Source: a virus
Strand: one strand, 5' to 3'
Virus record (IMG/VR): IMGVR_UViG_3300044911_002329
Location: 1-29,338 of that record
Length of the DNA stretch: 29,338 nucleotides
Under the pieces are notes generated by a model that searched no databases, was not told the DNA's origin, and saw only the letters and a list, made by a program, of their open reading frames with translations. This document shows positions 18,892 through 25,234 of this stretch, piece by piece (positions within the stretch are counted from its first letter, which is position 1; the number at the start of each line of letters is the position of its first letter). The translations under genes were made by a program, and so were the position numbers.

Positions 18892-19634
18892 AAGTCATTC
18901 GCAAGTGGAAACGGTGGCTGGCCGTTAGCTGCAGTCACGGACACCTGGCGAACGCGGCTGCTTGCAAGGCTGCGCTGGAAATGAAACGCCGGTGGAATCC
19001 AGACATGACTCTCCACCTGGGCGATTTTGTCGATCTGTCCGGGCTAATGGGCAGCGCGAGGAAAGATCCAGATTCGCCTGAACGCACATCATCCATCCGA
19101 GAGGACTTCGACGCTGGCCTTAATTTCGTTCGAGAACTGGCACCACGTTACATCTTTGAGGGAAACCATGAGCACCGCCTTACAGCTCTACAATACTCGC
19201 CTAGCGCAATCGTGGCGCACTGTTGCACCTCTGCGAAGTCGGAGATCTACAATATGTGCAAGGATCTAAAGGCGCAGTATGTGCCTTATGATATTGAGAA
19301 AGGCTGGCGTATCCTAGGGGGTACAGCGTTTGGGCACGGTTTTATGTATTCAGAGTCCAGCGCTGTACGCGACCACGTTGAAATGCTACGCAAGCCGGTC
19401 GTCATGGGGCATCTGCACCGGGTAGATCGGACGGCTGGCCGTAGCATCGGCGCACCCGTGGGCTGGTCGATAGGTTGCCTAGCAGATATTTCCAGCATGC
19501 ACTACGCTAGGAGAATGCGATCCGTTACCAGATGGCAGCACGGCGTCGCTTGGGGCGAATATGTTGAGGGCGGGCAGGGGTGCACGGTCAACGTCTTGTC
19601 GCCCGTGGGAGGAGTATGGCGGTATCCGCTGTAA
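18888..19634 (+). CDS. Calcineurin-like metallophosphoesterase
   Basis: The 248-residue protein carries the metal-binding motifs in order: SCSHGH (14-19), GDFVD (45-49), GNHEHR (92-97), GHGF (149-152) and GHLHR (174-178). These make up the two-metal site of calcineurin-like phosphatases or nucleases. The first motif is usually DxH; here the Asp is replaced, so only the histidines remain there. Phage enzymes of this family act on nucleic acids or nucleotides, and the substrate here is not evident. It starts in an ATGA overlap and its end overlaps the HTH gene by 19 nt. Confidence 0.8.
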   Translation: MKVIRKWKRWLAVSCSHGHLANAAACKAALEMKRRWNPDMTLHLGDFVDLSGLMGSARKDPDSPERTSSIREDFDAGLNFVRELAPRYIFEGNHEHRLTALQYSPSAIVAHCCTSAKSEIYNMCKDLKAQYVPYDIEKGWRILGGTAFGHGFMYSESSAVRDHVEMLRKPVVMGHLHRVDRTAGRSIGAPVGWSIGCLADISSMHYARRMRSVTRWQHGVAWGEYVEGGQGCTVNVLSPVGGVWRYPL

Positions 19635-19912
19635 AAGATTGGGCGGTTGCGCTTGAGGAGTTCGTCGAGCGCAAAGCAGTAGCTGTTCCGCCTGAGTTTA
19701 AGAGTGCCGCTGAGATTGCTAAAATATGGGGCTACACGCAGTCGCACGCCAGTAAGATGCTGAACACGATGGCGCGAAACGGCAGAGCCGAGATAAAGAA
19801 GTTTTCAGTCATGGTAGATACAGCTAATAAAAACAAGTATGGCCCGCGTCGTAGCTATTCCCGCCTAACGCCTTTTTATAGGCTGACCACAGGCAAATCG
19901 CCCAAAAACTAA
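19616..19912 (+). CDS. Small helix-turn-helix (winged) DNA-binding protein
   Basis: The ATG at 19616 follows a strong GGGAGGAG ribosome site and lies within the end of the metallophosphoesterase gene. The 98 residues contain a helix-turn-helix near 29-51 (SAAEIAKIWGYTQSHASKML) and a basic wing-like tail with KFSVMVDTANKNKYGPRR. It is the last rightward gene of the late region and ends in a 4-nt tail-to-tail overlap with the leftward ribbon-helix-helix gene. It may regulate late or lysogeny genes. Confidence 0.6.
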   Translation: MAVSAVKDWAVALEEFVERKAVAVPPEFKSAAEIAKIWGYTQSHASKMLNTMARNGRAEIKKFSVMVDTANKNKYGPRRSYSRLTPFYRLTTGKSPKN

Positions 19913-20052
19913 CGTCTATTTTCTTTGGCCAGCTCTTTAACCAGCAGAGTGGTGATATATGCCGAAAGGGATAATCCACTTTTTTTGGCAAGACGCTCAC
20001 CGTTGCGCTTTACTTTTGGGTCGATTGTAAGGTTCGTTTTCGCCTTTTTCAT
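19909..20052 (-). CDS. Ribbon-helix-helix regulator, leftward arm of a divergent pair
   Basis: The ATG is at 20052-20050, because its codons fit a full ribbon-helix-helix; open frame further upstream would cover the promoter. The 47 residues show the fold plainly: basic start, strand (TNLTIDP), helix (KVKRNGERLAKKSG), turn LSLSAY and a second helix (ITTLLVKELAK). Proteins of this kind (Arc, Mnt, CopG) bind operators as dimers of dimers. No Shine-Dalgarno sequence precedes the ATG, and the promoter call places transcription start at or next to it, so the message may be leaderless, as for lambda cI. It is probably the repressor or its opponent in a lysis-lysogeny switch. Confidence 0.7.
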   Translation of the reverse strand: MKKAKTNLTIDPKVKRNGERLAKKSGLSLSAYITTLLVKELAKENRR

Positions 20053-20059
20053 AGTGAGT

Positions 20060-20087
20060 ATTGTATGCGTAATAAATACGCATTCAA
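20060..20087 (-). promoter_or_regulatory. Promoter of the leftward RHH gene with operator in its spacer
   Basis: On the minus strand, -35 TTGAAT (20087-20082) and -10 TACAAT (20065-20060) lie 16 nt apart. The -10 ends 7 nt before the ATG, so the start of transcription would fall on or next to the start codon. The perfect inverted repeat ATGCGTA-N5-TACGCAT lies between and partly over the two hexamers, a place where a bound repressor would block RNA polymerase. Confidence 0.6.
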
Positions 20088-20124
20088 GTTTAAAACGAAA
20101 AGTTAATGCCCAAAAGAAATGTGT

Positions 20125-20133
20125 TGCTAATAC
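20125..20133 (+). promoter_or_regulatory. Possible extended -10 for the rightward RHH gene
   Basis: TG-C-TAATAC fits an extended -10 element, 24 nt before the ATG at 20158. No good -35 lies at 17 nt; TTAATG is 19 nt away. The last TAC overlaps the first arm of the ATACGCC/GGCGTAT inverted repeat, which would allow repression. This is a weak call. Confidence 0.35.
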
Positions 20134-20157
20134 GCCGTGTGTGCGTAGCAAAGGCGT

Positions 20158-20319
20158 ATGCCTCGTCGTCCACTCAACGGTTTTAAAGCGGAAAAGACCA
20201 ACATCGTTCTGCCTGTTGCTGTGAAAAAAGCATCTCAAAAACTGGCCGCTCTCCGTCGTATTTCGCTTTCCCAGCTCATTACTCAACTGCTTGCAAAAGC
20301 ATCGGGAGAGCAAAGCTAG
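20158..20319 (+). CDS. Ribbon-helix-helix regulator, rightward arm of a divergent pair
   Basis: A 53-residue protein with a basic arm (MPRRPLNGFK), a strand (KTNIVLPV), a first helix (AVKKASQKLAALRR) and a second helix (SLSQLITQLLAKA): the ribbon-helix-helix layout again, with different detail from the leftward protein. The ATG is part of the right arm of an inverted repeat, and AAGG at 20151-20154 is a weak ribosome site. It is followed closely by the excisionase-like gene. The two RHH proteins may oppose each other like Arc/Mnt of P22 or Cro/CI, but this is inferred from layout. Confidence 0.65.
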   Translation: MPRRPLNGFKAEKTNIVLPVAVKKASQKLAALRRISLSQLITQLLAKASGEQS

Positions 20320-20355
20320 ATATTTATGTGCTTGGGGCGCCTCAATGATACAGCA

Positions 20356-20691
20356 ATGAAACTCCGCCAGGAGAACCGAGCTCTTTCACTTCGCCAATTA
20401 GGCGCTGCTTACGGCCTCGGCTATGTGCGAATTAAGCAAATGCGGGAACTGTCAGGCTTTCCGCTGATTGCTGGAAAGATAATGCCCTCTGATTTTGATC
20501 AATGGCGACTGACGCAGACTGGCCTAAATTTACCGCGTCCCGCAGATCGTCTACGCAGTGCCTCTGATACAACTCGTGCACTAAAGTCGACGAATGATTC
20601 ACGAGTCTCATGGCAACGGATTGCGAGCAACCTGAAAGCCGAAGCCTGGTTACACGAGTTACACGCAGGGAGTGAAAACAGTGACGTTTAA
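20356..20691 (+). CDS. Excisionase-like HTH protein overlapping integrase antisense
   Basis: The ATG at 20356 gives a protein that starts at the fold; an in-frame ATG at 20326 is an alternative with a GGAGAG-type ribosome site upstream. From 20356 the protein has a helix-turn-helix (LSLRQLGAAYGLGYVRIKQM) and a wing-like segment (GFPLIAGKIMPSDFDQW), a layout seen in excisionases and other MerR-like small DNA-binding proteins. Its position next to the integrase and attP supports an excisionase or recombination-directionality role. The last ~260 nt lie antisense to the 3' end of the integrase gene, including its catalytic tyrosine codon, so the C-terminal half may be under dual constraint or unimportant. 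Confidence 0.5.
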   Translation: MKLRQENRALSLRQLGAAYGLGYVRIKQMRELSGFPLIAGKIMPSDFDQWRLTQTGLNLPRPADRLRSASDTTRALKSTNDSRVSWQRIASNLKAEAWLHELHAGSENSDV

Positions 20692-21529
20692 GACCGCATA
20701 TATCGAGCAGGCGACGCCAGCAAAGCGAAGCTCGCGTGCGGGGCACTTCGCAAGTGATCTCGCGGCCCTCGGCCTTCATTCTAGCCAGCATGGGTTCGAG
20801 AGCGGCCGGGATGGGAATCGAGAAGGATTTGCCGGCGCCACCCTTGGGACAGGGGAAGGTAAGGACGCGATTCTTCAGATCCACACACTCAAGCGGGATC
20901 TGTGTCTCTCTCAGGCGACAGCCCGTAGCCAGGGCGATCTCAAAGCTGATTCGCATCCATTCGGGCACGCCTTCCACGGCCAAAGCCTTCCGGGTAATTT
21001 TTATTTCATTGTCCGAAAAGACGGGTTTTACGCGGGCTATCGGGCCCCTTTTAATTCTGTAATCCAGAAGGGCGACAGAATCCATCTTGCCAAGAAGTCT
21101 GCCCTGGCGGTGAATCCATTTCAGAATCTTCAGATCTTGGCAGGCTTGGTTCCTGCCCGCCTTACCGCCGGACGTGCGGGGGAGGCTTTGGCGCCATTTC
21201 AAATAAATTTCACAATCGGATGGAGAAAACGCTTGCAGACTGATTTTTTTCTCACTAATAAATCTCCCCAGATGACGCCACGAGTTCCTGTAATAAATTT
21301 TTGTCAGAGGAGAAACGGGATGATTTTCAATCAAATCATCAACCCAATCGCTGCCGCAATCTTTGCGCTTTTCATTAACGCCAAGTCTGGCGGCCTCGGC
21401 CGTTGCCTTCGCGCGGTGCAGGGTATTGTCGATTCGGTATCGCGTACTTTTAGTGCGCCACTTGCCCGTGGGATCTTTGAAGCGAATGTAGAACCACGGA
21501 TTGCCTTTCTTAATGTAGGAATAGGCCAT
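20432..21529 (-). CDS. int: Tyrosine-recombinase integrase
   Basis: The 365-residue protein has an N-terminal arm-binding-like region (YIRFKDPTGKWRTKSTRY, about 14-31), a SAM-like core-binding domain (about 60-150), and a catalytic domain with R205 (ATGCRLRE), likely K229 or K234, the HSLR box (H286, R289), H312 (VNHSS) and the nucleophile Y321 (HELYQRH). All expected catalytic residues are visible, so it should be active. It drives integration between attP and the host tRNA gene. The start lies about 90 bp from the tRNA fragment at 21622-21646, a usual int-attP spacing. Its 3' end overlaps the excisionase-like gene on the other strand. Confidence 0.9.
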   Translation of the reverse strand: MAYSYIKKGNPWFYIRFKDPTGKWRTKSTRYRIDNTLHRAKATAEAARLGVNEKRKDCGSDWVDDLIENHPVSPLTKIYYRNSWRHLGRFISEKKISLQAFSPSDCEIYLKWRQSLPRTSGGKAGRNQACQDLKILKWIHRQGRLLGKMDSVALLDYRIKRGPIARVKPVFSDNEIKITRKALAVEGVPEWMRISFEIALATGCRLRETQIPLECVDLKNRVLTFPCPKGGAGKSFSIPIPAALEPMLARMKAEGREITCEVPRTRASLCWRRLLDICGLKRHCFHSLRVTRVTRLRLSGCSQSVAMRLVNHSSTLVHELYQRHCVDDLRDAVNLGQSASVAIDQNQRALSFQQSAESLTVPAFA

Positions 21530-21530
21530 A

Positions 21531-21564
21531 GTTACAAGGGTAACATTTGCTTAATTTAAAGCAA
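21531..21564. promoter_or_regulatory. Inverted repeats between int and attP
   Basis: Two inverted repeats stand side by side: GTTAC-N4-GTAAC at 21531-21544, beginning 2 nt upstream of the integrase start codon, and TTGCTT-N6-AAGCAA at 21547-21564. They could be an operator for int expression or arm sites for integrase or excisionase. No convincing promoter hexamers accompany them. Confidence 0.4.
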
Positions 21565-21579
21565 TAACACACAGCAAAC

Positions 21580-21837
21580 ATGCAAAGCATAATCAATCAA
21601 ATCAAAGAAGGAGATAGAACCGTGGGTTCAAATCCCACCCCGTCCGATGCTTATCACTATAATGACTTACGCCGAAACGGTAACACGGCGGTAATAACTG
21701 AGCCTAAAAAGGCTCTCTACCAACAATTTAATTTAAATATACGCGGCGGGTACGATTTGACCCCCGAAGCGTTCGTTTATCACCCAAACCCCGCCGTGTG
21801 CCGTATGTGGGCACAGCAGCACGAGGCCAGCAAATGA
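21580..21837 (+). CDS. Hypothetical protein whose frame runs through attP
   Basis: The ATG at 21580 opens an 85-residue frame with no other ATG until near the end. Residues 14-23 are encoded by the tRNA fragment (TVGSNPTPSD), so the N-terminus changes if the phage integrates. The C-terminal part (LYQQFNLNIRGGYDLTP, YHPNPAVCRMWAQQHEASK) looks like a small protein and its stop overlaps the next gene in an ATGA junction, which supports translation of that part. A GAGCC-N6-GGCTC hairpin lies inside it at 21700-21715. The true start may be a non-ATG codon after attP. Confidence 0.4.
   Translation: MQSIINQIKEGDRTVGSNPTPSDAYHYNDLRRNGNTAVITEPKKALYQQFNLNIRGGYDLTPEAFVYHPNPAVCRMWAQQHEASK
21622..21646 (+). 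other. attP: attP core: 3' end of a tRNA gene
   Basis: The sequence folds as a T-arm (GTGGG, loop TTCAAAT, CCCAC; 21622-21638) followed by the acceptor 3' strand CCCGTCC (21639-21645) and a G discriminator base (21646). No matching 5' part of a tRNA is present upstream. Tyrosine recombinases often use such tRNA 3' ends as attachment cores, and int lies about 90 bp away. A G discriminator and this T-stem would suit a serine tRNA, but the identity is uncertain. The exact ends of the core are not visible from one sequence. Confidence 0.75.
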
Positions 21838-21995
21838 TTTCTTGGGAAGTCATGCGGGATCTTGCCCAAGTATCCATGCTGATTACTGGCTGGGCTTTAT
21901 TCGTAGGCTCTGGAATCGCTGGGCTGACCGTAGCCGTGATCGTGCTGGGCTGGGTAATCGATCAAGTGCGTCGATTCTTTAGGGAGGGCAGATGA
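21834..21995 (+). CDS. Small membrane protein
   Basis: A 53-residue protein starting in an ATGA overlap, with a hydrophobic core that could form one long or two short spans (LITGWALFVGSGIAGLTVAV, IVLGWVI) and a basic C-terminal tail (QVRRFFREGR), suggesting a cytoplasmic C-terminus. It is the second gene of the rightward operon after attP. In prophages such small membrane proteins near the attachment site may act in superinfection exclusion, but nothing proves that here. Confidence 0.45.
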   Translation: MISWEVMRDLAQVSMLITGWALFVGSGIAGLTVAVIVLGWVIDQVRRFFREGR

Positions 21996-22255
21996 TTTAC
22001 GCCAAGGACAACGGTGCCCCCGCACCTGAAAGCCAAGGCGGCGTGGCCGGGGCGTTCTATCCGCCTGCGGCTACTGTTCGCGACCTCGAAGCAGAGGGCA
22101 TTCTGCCGATCTCAGTCTCGCAATCCTACGGATCGGCGCAGCTCTCGCAGACCACTGCTCTGATCGATCTGCAAACCAAGTACCGAAAGCTGCGTAATGA
22201 CCTAGACGGCATTCAAGAGGTGGTCGCAAGCCTGCTCAAGAGGGCGCAATCGTGA
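21992..22255 (+). CDS. Hypothetical early protein
   Basis: An 87-residue protein in an ATGA overlap. The first half is flexible (proline-, glycine- and alanine-rich), and the second half is a helix with coiled-coil character (LIDLQTKYRKLRNDLDGIQEV) ending in SLLKRAQS. It has no catalytic motif or membrane span. Its place ahead of an endonuclease in the replication operon suggests a small accessory protein of DNA metabolism or a structural adaptor. Confidence 0.4.
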   Translation: MIYAKDNGAPAPESQGGVAGAFYPPAATVRDLEAEGILPISVSQSYGSAQLSQTTALIDLQTKYRKLRNDLDGIQEVVASLLKRAQS

Positions 22256-24543: not shown

Positions 24544-24956
24544 GGACACTGCTATCAATCCTGGCCCTGCTTGGCTTTACCACGACGAAACTAAGTAACG
24601 CACTAATCGATCTGCGTCCGATCGCCAAGAAGATCGACGTTAAGAAAATCAAGGTTCGCATCACTGGCTACTGGCCGGGAGAAGATGAGTGGAGCAGTCG
24701 CTATCAGTCCAGCACTGGCACACGCTTGCGTGCTGGCCGTCACTGTGCCGTCGATCCAGACATTATTCCGCTATGGTCTAAGATTCGCGTGATGGGCGGC
24801 AAGCGTGAGTGGGTGGCCGTGGATACGGGCACTGCCGTTAAAAGCAAAAAGGCAAGCGGTGGGAAGTTGCCCGTTGTGGACGTGTTTGCTGCAAGCGAAA
24901 AGCAGTTTAACGCGATGCGCCTGCCGAAGTTCGCGATGGTGGAGGTGATGAAGTGA
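24540..24956 (+). CDS. 3D-domain cell-wall protein
   Basis: The 138-residue protein starts with a hydrophobic segment that may be a signal (LLSILALLGFTTTKL). The rest is a double-psi beta-barrel of the 3D type, with ITGYWPGEDEWSS, HCAVDPDIIPLWSKI (D72), VAVDTGTAV (D95) and VVDVFAASEKQF (D114), the three aspartates that name the domain. Members such as YuiC and MltA cut glycan strands in peptidoglycan. Its presence among replication genes is unusual, because lysis genes lie elsewhere. It might act early, at entry, or on the wall of lysogens. The signal and three Asp residues are visible; the activity is inferred from the family. Confidence 0.6.
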   Translation: MRTLLSILALLGFTTTKLSNALIDLRPIAKKIDVKKIKVRITGYWPGEDEWSSRYQSSTGTRLRAGRHCAVDPDIIPLWSKIRVMGGKREWVAVDTGTAVKSKKASGGKLPVVDVFAASEKQFNAMRLPKFAMVEVMK

Positions 24957-25234
24957 GTACGACACCCGCTAGGCTCGCATCTAAACGCAATCGGGCGATG
25001 AGCCTGGGCGATACACGGCCGACGTTTCGCCGCTTGGGCGTGATCGCTGGCATGCTGCGGCGGGATCTGACGCTGCCTAGCTGTGCCAGGTTAGGTGTAA
25101 AACTTGAGTGCAGTTACAAGACCATCCAACGGGACATCGATCTGTTGCGAGACTTTTTTGGCTATCCGCTGGAATACGACGCCAGCAAGTACCACTACAA
25201 ACTGGCGGGGCCGCTGCCGAAGGCGGTGCTGTGA
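24953..25234 (+). CDS. HTH_11-type winged-helix regulator
   Basis: A 93-residue protein beginning at GTG in a GTGA overlap. Its second half contains a helix-turn-helix ending in the motif YKTIQRDIDLLRDFFGYPL, a near-textbook HTH_11 recognition helix and wing, followed by EYDASKYHYKLAGP. That motif opens WYL-type regulators, but here no ligand domain follows, so it is a free-standing DNA-binding unit. It probably controls early genes. The N-terminal ~45 residues are basic. Confidence 0.6.
   Translation: MSTTPARLASKRNRAMSLGDTRPTFRRLGVIAGMLRRDLTLPSCARLGVKLECSYKTIQRDIDLLRDFFGYPLEYDASKYHYKLAGPLPKAVL

Follow-up and report, generated by a model that had tools for sequence, protein, structure and literature searches.

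The virus record of 29,338 bp that was analysed here over its whole length (the window) carries two small genes for ribbon-helix-helix (RHH) proteins, P1 and P2, which face away from each other across one short intergenic region. We consider it probable that they make up a self-contained two-repressor switch of a temperate phage, which uses RHH proteins only and would decide between lysis and lysogeny. This reading draws on the gene layout, the paralogy of the two proteins, phased operator boxes, promoter geometry, the swapping of the cassette between relatives and the lack of a CI-type gene above cut-off. The pair is most likely the dormancy switch of this virus, and its proteins have another fold than those of textbook switches. 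In an uncultivated phage family, probably of Verrucomicrobiota, the roles of CI and Cro appear to have passed to two RHH paralogs, and dormancy control of these phages is otherwise undescribed. Lysogeny modules can escape genome scans that are limited to CI-like repressors. Since proteins and boxes differ between naturally occurring types, the family is also a ready system for specificity change in beta-sheet DNA readers.

The virus family and its two RHH proteins

The window was 100% identical to most of a relative of 36,470 bp (G063). Late genes flank the switch locus on one side, and a tyrosine integrase with a tRNA-like attP flanks it on the other. A search with P2 returned 51 viral loci and a search with the integrase returned 75, among which 65 matched both P1 and P2. 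Seven of the other ten integrase loci stop in or just past the integrase, two (L125 and L127) hold only part of it, and L113 has the full integrase without P1, P2 and P3. The set of 67 switches used below consists of the window, the 51 loci of the P2 search and 15 more of the integrase search, with 57 distinct intergenic regions; one member, L002, comes from the very phage that the window represents. We named four types for this analysis: A (window-like), B (L067, L068, L076, L089, L092 and L112), C (L103 and L116) and D (L118).

P2 and the integrase had no match among 50,697 phage records. The replication protein had distant matches in 59 phage records, with less than 30% identity in the best 20 of the 59. 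Verrucomicrobia bacterium UBA3063, a metagenome-assembled genome, has a relative of the integrase with 55% identity on a 3.4-kb contig which stops before the switch. In the order of UBA3063, 8 of 62 genomes including UBA3063 itself had an integrase match, the other matches being at most 40% identical. Because of the 55% identity on this single contig, the hosts of the virus family are probably Verrucomicrobiota.

P1 (20052-19909, minus strand) has 47 amino acids and P2 (20158-20319, plus strand) has 53. An earlier note on this DNA had described two RHH proteins facing apart over 105 nt, and both ORF coordinates and the 105-nt gap were confirmed. P1 matched PHROG 582, 'Arc-like repressor' (E 7e-5). 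P2 alone gave a weak RHH match (E 0.029), and the best of 32 members of its family matched RHH_5 at E 2.8e-4. The best Pfam match of the P1 family was DUF6364 (E 3.4e-4), and neither protein attained the curated Pfam cut-off for any family. P1 and P2 are paralogs as judged by hhalign, which aligned the two families with 97% probability and 36% identity over 42 columns. By their pN/pS ratios, 0.10 for P1 (in A/D-type relatives) and 0.21 for P2, both are under purifying selection.

The structure model of P2 (mean pLDDT 72.5) has an extended N-terminus followed by helices at residues 20-32 and 37-48, without a strand in the monomer. It agrees with the RHH plan of an N-terminal strand and two helices, and P1 was judged from sequence alone. 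The top Foldseek matches of the P2 model were mostly RHH proteins (Arc, CopG, VapB26, ParG), none at E ≤ 0.001. The presumed DNA-reading strand contains KTN in both proteins of A types, and TNIYL and TNLYL in B types. In the RHH fold this strand reads DNA in Arc and MetJ, and by analogy the same strand would read DNA in P1 and P2.

The leftward promoter (minus strand) is present as the earlier note had described it: TTGAAT-16-TACAAT at 20087-20060, with the -35 at 20082-20087 and the -10 at 20060-20065, which ends 7 nt before the P1 ATG. Taken by itself, the promoter scan is not significant (4 sites against 1.7 expected). Over the 57 distinct intergenic regions the -10 hexamer reads TACAAT in 40, TACTAT in 5, TAGAAT in 4, TATTAT in 4 and otherwise in 4. 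Its distance from the P1 ATG is 6 nt in 13, 7 nt in 36 and 8 nt in 8 of them. Since the -10 ends 6-8 nt before the ATG in 57/57, the mRNA of P1 is very probably leaderless, as had been proposed. On the plus strand, a -35-like TTGCTA (20124-20129), which is TGGACA or TTGACG in other members, precedes a -10-like TAGCAA (20146-20151) which lies 6 nt before the P2 ATG and is without the consensus last T. The same geometry, with 16-nt spacing and a -10-like hexamer 6 nt before the ATG, was found in 54 of the 57. The mRNA of P2 may also be leaderless, a point absent from the earlier note, though its -10 is poor (TAnnnA in A types). No Shine-Dalgarno word precedes P1 in any of the 57 intergenic regions. 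This says little, because such motifs are rare in this phage anyway: they precede 9 of 31 other window genes (background 0.107; one start was entered 2 nt off).

Phased operator boxes and exchangeable types

GCGTA or TACGC words occur at 20067, 20077, 20131, 20143 and 20154. The earlier note had placed five such half-sites in the gap as shared operators. All five exist, but only four lie inside the gap, since the fifth (20154) ends on the A of the P2 ATG. Both inverted repeats claimed there are real and perfect: ATGCGTA-5-TACGCAT (20065-20083) sits in the spacer of the leftward promoter, and ATACGCC-16-GGCGTAT (20130-20159) overlaps the P2 ATG. The idea of shared operators is supported, but the half-sites themselves are better read, on the sequence pattern, as five CpG-centred 6-bp boxes of about TRCGYA that are phased by 11 bp.

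Two of these boxes lie in the leftward promoter spacer: L1 (TGCGTA, 20066-20071, CpG centre 20068.5) and L2 (TACGCA, 20077-20082, centre 20079.5), 11 bp apart. The other three span the rightward promoter up to the P2 ATG. These are R1 (TACGCC, 20131-20136, centre 20133.5), R2 (TGCGTA, 20142-20147, centre 20144.5), which is 11 bp from R1 and overlaps the rightward -10, and R3 (GGCGTA, 20153-20158, centre 20155.5), which is 11 bp from R2 and ends on the first base of the P2 start codon.

When the window was shuffled 200 times, the highest count of these 5-mers per 105 bp came to five in 1 shuffle, and a 5-mer used at least four times inside the gap is ordinary (1790 of 5000 shuffles). What goes beyond chance is that the CpG centres are phased by 11 bp and that relatives conserve this phasing, both of which were absent from the earlier note. 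The gap of the window holds three pairs of CpG centres at 11 bp (P 0.003 by shuffling), and strict box pairs at 11 bp in the whole 29,338 bp are only the three of the switch.

The left 11-bp CpG pair was kept in 67/67 switches. On the operator side, this step may correspond to the roughly one helical turn that separates the sub-sites bound by Arc-type RHH dimers. The right triple lies at -25/-14/-3 from the ATG in 60 of 61 non-B members, and L044 is without the third CpG. All six B members have a mirrored layout, three boxes left and two right, with the same 11-bp step and boxes of TGCGC type. Over the 57 distinct intergenic regions there were 172 CpG pairs at 11 bp; next came 58 at 22 bp, which is a harmonic, and 40 each at 8 bp and 19 bp. 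In the 49 distinct intergenic regions of A and D types, conservation was 98-100% in the CpG columns, averaged 93.5% in the remaining columns of the right boxes and was 78.8% outside the boxes; R3 reads GGCGTA in 48 of them. Strict boxes at 11 bp formed 165 pairs in the switches, and the rest of the 697 kb of locus sequence had 0, with a pattern that does not take in B-type boxes. Among eight whole relatives, two (G075 and G078) had one strict pair each outside the switch.

The same box position tolerates TGCGTA, TACGCA or TGCGCA, which is the behaviour to be expected of a two-fold site that a dimer reads. The inverted repeat was considered as the conserved unit and rejected, since the left cluster is a direct repeat, TACGCA-N5-TACGCA, in 4 of the 49 A/D-type intergenic regions.

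As a test outside the set of 67, further relatives were sought with a B-type P2 and with the alignments of both protein families. Three distant contigs had a visible intergenic region, all with divergent small ORFs, and the commonest CpG spacing was 11 bp in each (L205, P 0.006; L273, P 0.0008; L286, P 0.036, by shuffling). In L273 a consensus TTGACA-17-TAAAAT ends 6 nt before the P1 ATG. In L205 the leftward ORF was judged RHH by eye only and the promoter geometry differs.

When each of the six B members was compared with the A or D member nearest in integrase, P1, intergenic region and P2 were 49-64% identical between types, whereas the adjoining P3 start was 84-94% and the integrase region 88-92% identical. 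The right border of the cassette lies between P2 and P3, because identity changes there from 49-64% to 84-94%. The left border is not fixed, since the 900 bp left of P1 are likewise diverged (46-59%). Whole cassettes of P1, operator and P2 have thus been swapped, as far as sequence tells, and would represent exchangeable immunity types. P1, P2 and boxes change together in B types. The tracking is imperfect elsewhere: L118 pairs an A-type P1 with left boxes of TGCGC type, and the C-type P2 differs without large box change.

An alignment of 20 sequences and a strict-box scan showed no convincing phased operators at the integrase promoter or the early genes, and hence no sign that lytic genes are repressed directly. 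In the same alignment the word GGTAACATTT (21539-21548), just 5' of the integrase start, is nearly invariant, L113 included, and it may be a regulatory site. The window has no second exact copy of GGTAACATTT.

A second operator was considered inside a glycosyltransferase-like coding sequence which starts just outside the window, where a phased pair is present in six of the eight relatives with whole records. We did not count it, because the region is coding, its amino acids are conserved and each record has a few loose pairs. It is probably coding conservation, and a true distant operator is possible. This phased pair lies near 15963 of L288, with homologous pairs in L289, L292, L294, L295 and L298, and it is a triple in B types.

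A proposed mechanism and other explanations

In the proposed switch, one RHH dimer would occupy each CpG-centred box, and adjacent dimers, separated by one helical turn, would stack along the same face of the DNA. L1 and L2 take up the space between the -35 and the -10 of the P1 promoter, and R1 to R3 extend over the P2 promoter from its spacer as far as the start codon. An occupied cluster would block the promoter under it, and two paralogs acting on similar boxes would give mutual and self repression. P1 is likely the maintenance repressor (CI/Mnt-like), because it stands alone behind the better, probably leaderless promoter. P2 (Cro/Arc-like) with P3 from the opposite promoter (P_R) is likely the lytic or induction side, since P2 leads P3 toward the early genes.

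P3 (20326-20691, plus strand) is an ORF of 121 amino acids, 6 nt past P2, with a predicted N-terminal HTH, and is possibly excisionase-like. It is open in 66/67 switches, starting 3-16 nt past P2, and the exception (L026) is a contig end. AlphaFold gave an HTH-like part at residues 11-60 (pLDDT 87-91); from residue 68 on, in the part antisense to the integrase gene (int), pLDDT is mostly below 50. Assignment of P3 to a known family was tried and dropped: there was no PHROG match and no meaningful Pfam match, and fold searches returned weak HTH-type matches only. The integrase (20432-21529, minus strand; PHROG 1 integrase, E 3e-30) is convergent with P3. Their antisense overlap, 20432-20691, is 260 bp, unusually long and kept across the family. 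Due to this overlap, conservation of the 3' part of P3 proves nothing.

The attP core (about 21620-21647, plus strand) resembles a tRNA 3' end; it is identical in L128 and present in 70 integrase loci. An ORF at 21580-21837 passes straight through the core and is open with an in-frame start in all 70 of these loci. Its pN/pS is 0.23-0.40 past the core, which is a coding signature, and 0.52-0.78 before the core, which is hardly so. Translation of this ORF could really begin at a GTG within the core.

P_R transcription would run through P3, antisense over int, then attP and the early operon if nothing stops it. A terminator scan of 19600-22100 gave four weak sites where 3.4 were expected, and two of the four lie within int on the plus strand, so read-through to the early genes is possible. 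A more far-reaching form of the proposal says that immunity comes only from the two leaderless RHH paralogs, that integration itself cuts the lytic programme and that types arise by whole-cassette swap; taken as a whole, we hold it to be doubtful. In this form P_R would pass P2, P3, the antisense strand of int and attP before the early operon. Because attP precedes the early operon on this path, recombination at attP would part P_R from the early genes, and would also remove the start of the first early ORF.

Against the switch stands L113, which is without P1-P3 yet keeps integrase and attP. It is a natural loss (L113 7060-7350) where the integrase end meets the winged-HTH-like upstream ORF, with attP and the HTH_11 gene kept. 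In L127 (6001-6432) the C-terminal part of P1 is joined directly to residues 1-115 of the integrase, which looks like a deletion of P2, P3 and most of int.

It had been claimed that no CI-type repressor is in view, and this holds when the search is extended beyond the window: HTH_3 was above cut-off in 0/25 family records (sub-threshold in three) and Peptidase_S24 was found in 0/25, CheckV completeness not being given for these records. We identified two other predicted HTH genes, a winged-HTH-like one (19617-19912) and an HTH_11 one (24953-25234; Pfam E 4e-5), both below the Pfam cut-off, and either could be the true repressor. The HTH_11 protein, whose N-terminus we take to be WYL-regulator-like, could serve in this way if the RHH pair has a local task. 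P1 would then repress P2 and P3, P3 would be excisionase-like, P_R would silence int by antisense transcription, and the early genes would be held by the HTH_11 or the winged-HTH-like protein. Such local control of excision and integration is possible, and we give it a limited chance. It fits the confinement of phased boxes to the switch within the window, a predicted HTH protein (P3) beside int, and the HTH_11 gene, which 56 of the 75 integrase loci have, L113 among them. But the cassette diversity at the RHH pair looks immunity-like, and the HTH_11 protein sits inside the early operon and does not vary with immunity type, since five of the six B-type loci yielded it, with an identity of 89-92%.

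That the pair is a secondary immunity module controlling P3, with the primary switch elsewhere, is unlikely in our view. P3 lies directly 3' of P2, and immI of P22 also has two repressors, Mnt and Arc, which control a further gene, ant (PMC2629481). P3 matches no antirepressor family, however, and the 25 records hold no primary CI-type gene above cut-off. A toxin-antitoxin or plasmid copy-control or partition module is highly improbable. Sub-threshold matches of P1 to CcdA, DUF6364, CopG and HicB-like PHROGs point in that direction, but no toxin family lies beside P1 or P2, P3 matches none, and the pair adjoins int in a phage. Type II systems have a toxin in operon with the RHH gene, and here P1 is alone on its own strand, convergent with the next gene, with no same-strand partner downstream.

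Comparison with known systems

Lambda CI and Cro are two divergent repressors with common operators. The present switch is lambda-like in logic, having a divergent repressor pair and shared operators. It is unlike lambda in its proteins: those of lambda are HTH_3 proteins, CI with S24, and neither domain was above cut-off in the family records. Lambda cI is leaderless, as also cited in PMC4488713. In the telomere phage PY54, CI and Cro lie around one shared intergenic region, as here, with both mRNAs starting at the AUG by RACE (PMC4488713). Unlike the present RHH pair, the PY54 CI and Cro are likened there to those of lambda (PMC4488713).

In mycobacteriophage BPs, which has integration-dependent immunity, attP lies inside a phage gene and integration alters that gene (PMC4557955). 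An attP inside a gene is found here too; the gene is the repressor gene in BPs and a function-unassigned ORF heading the early genes here. F55 of SSV1 is a small RHH protein that keeps lysogeny in a CI-like manner, and its repeats overlap promoters including its own (PMC5569661). SSV1 differs from the present switch in being an archaeal virus with a single repressor and ATAGATAG tandem repeats, and the passages of PMC5569661 consulted describe no paralogous divergent partner of F55.

Among the titles listed by our literature searches, which covered few subscription papers, none describes a tailed phage with a divergent switch made of RHH proteins only. Nor does any of these titles combine such proteins with divergent genes, phased boxes and allotypes.

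The Arc of P22 has 53 amino acids and heads the ant operon, with Mnt and Arc divergent, and it binds between -10 and -35 at half-sites about 11 bp apart. The present switch has two small divergent RHH repressor genes as P22 immI has. In P22, immI is a moron that controls ant and is accompanied by a separate prophage repressor, whereas the present family is without a CI-type gene above cut-off. The gene past P2 is a predicted HTH protein and not Ant, and leaderless starts are predicted here. A further part of immI is the antisense RNA sar. PMC2629481 names Mnt, Arc, sar and ant. The kind of switch is already known from P22 Arc/Mnt and SSV1 F55, and the present one is a variant of that kind.
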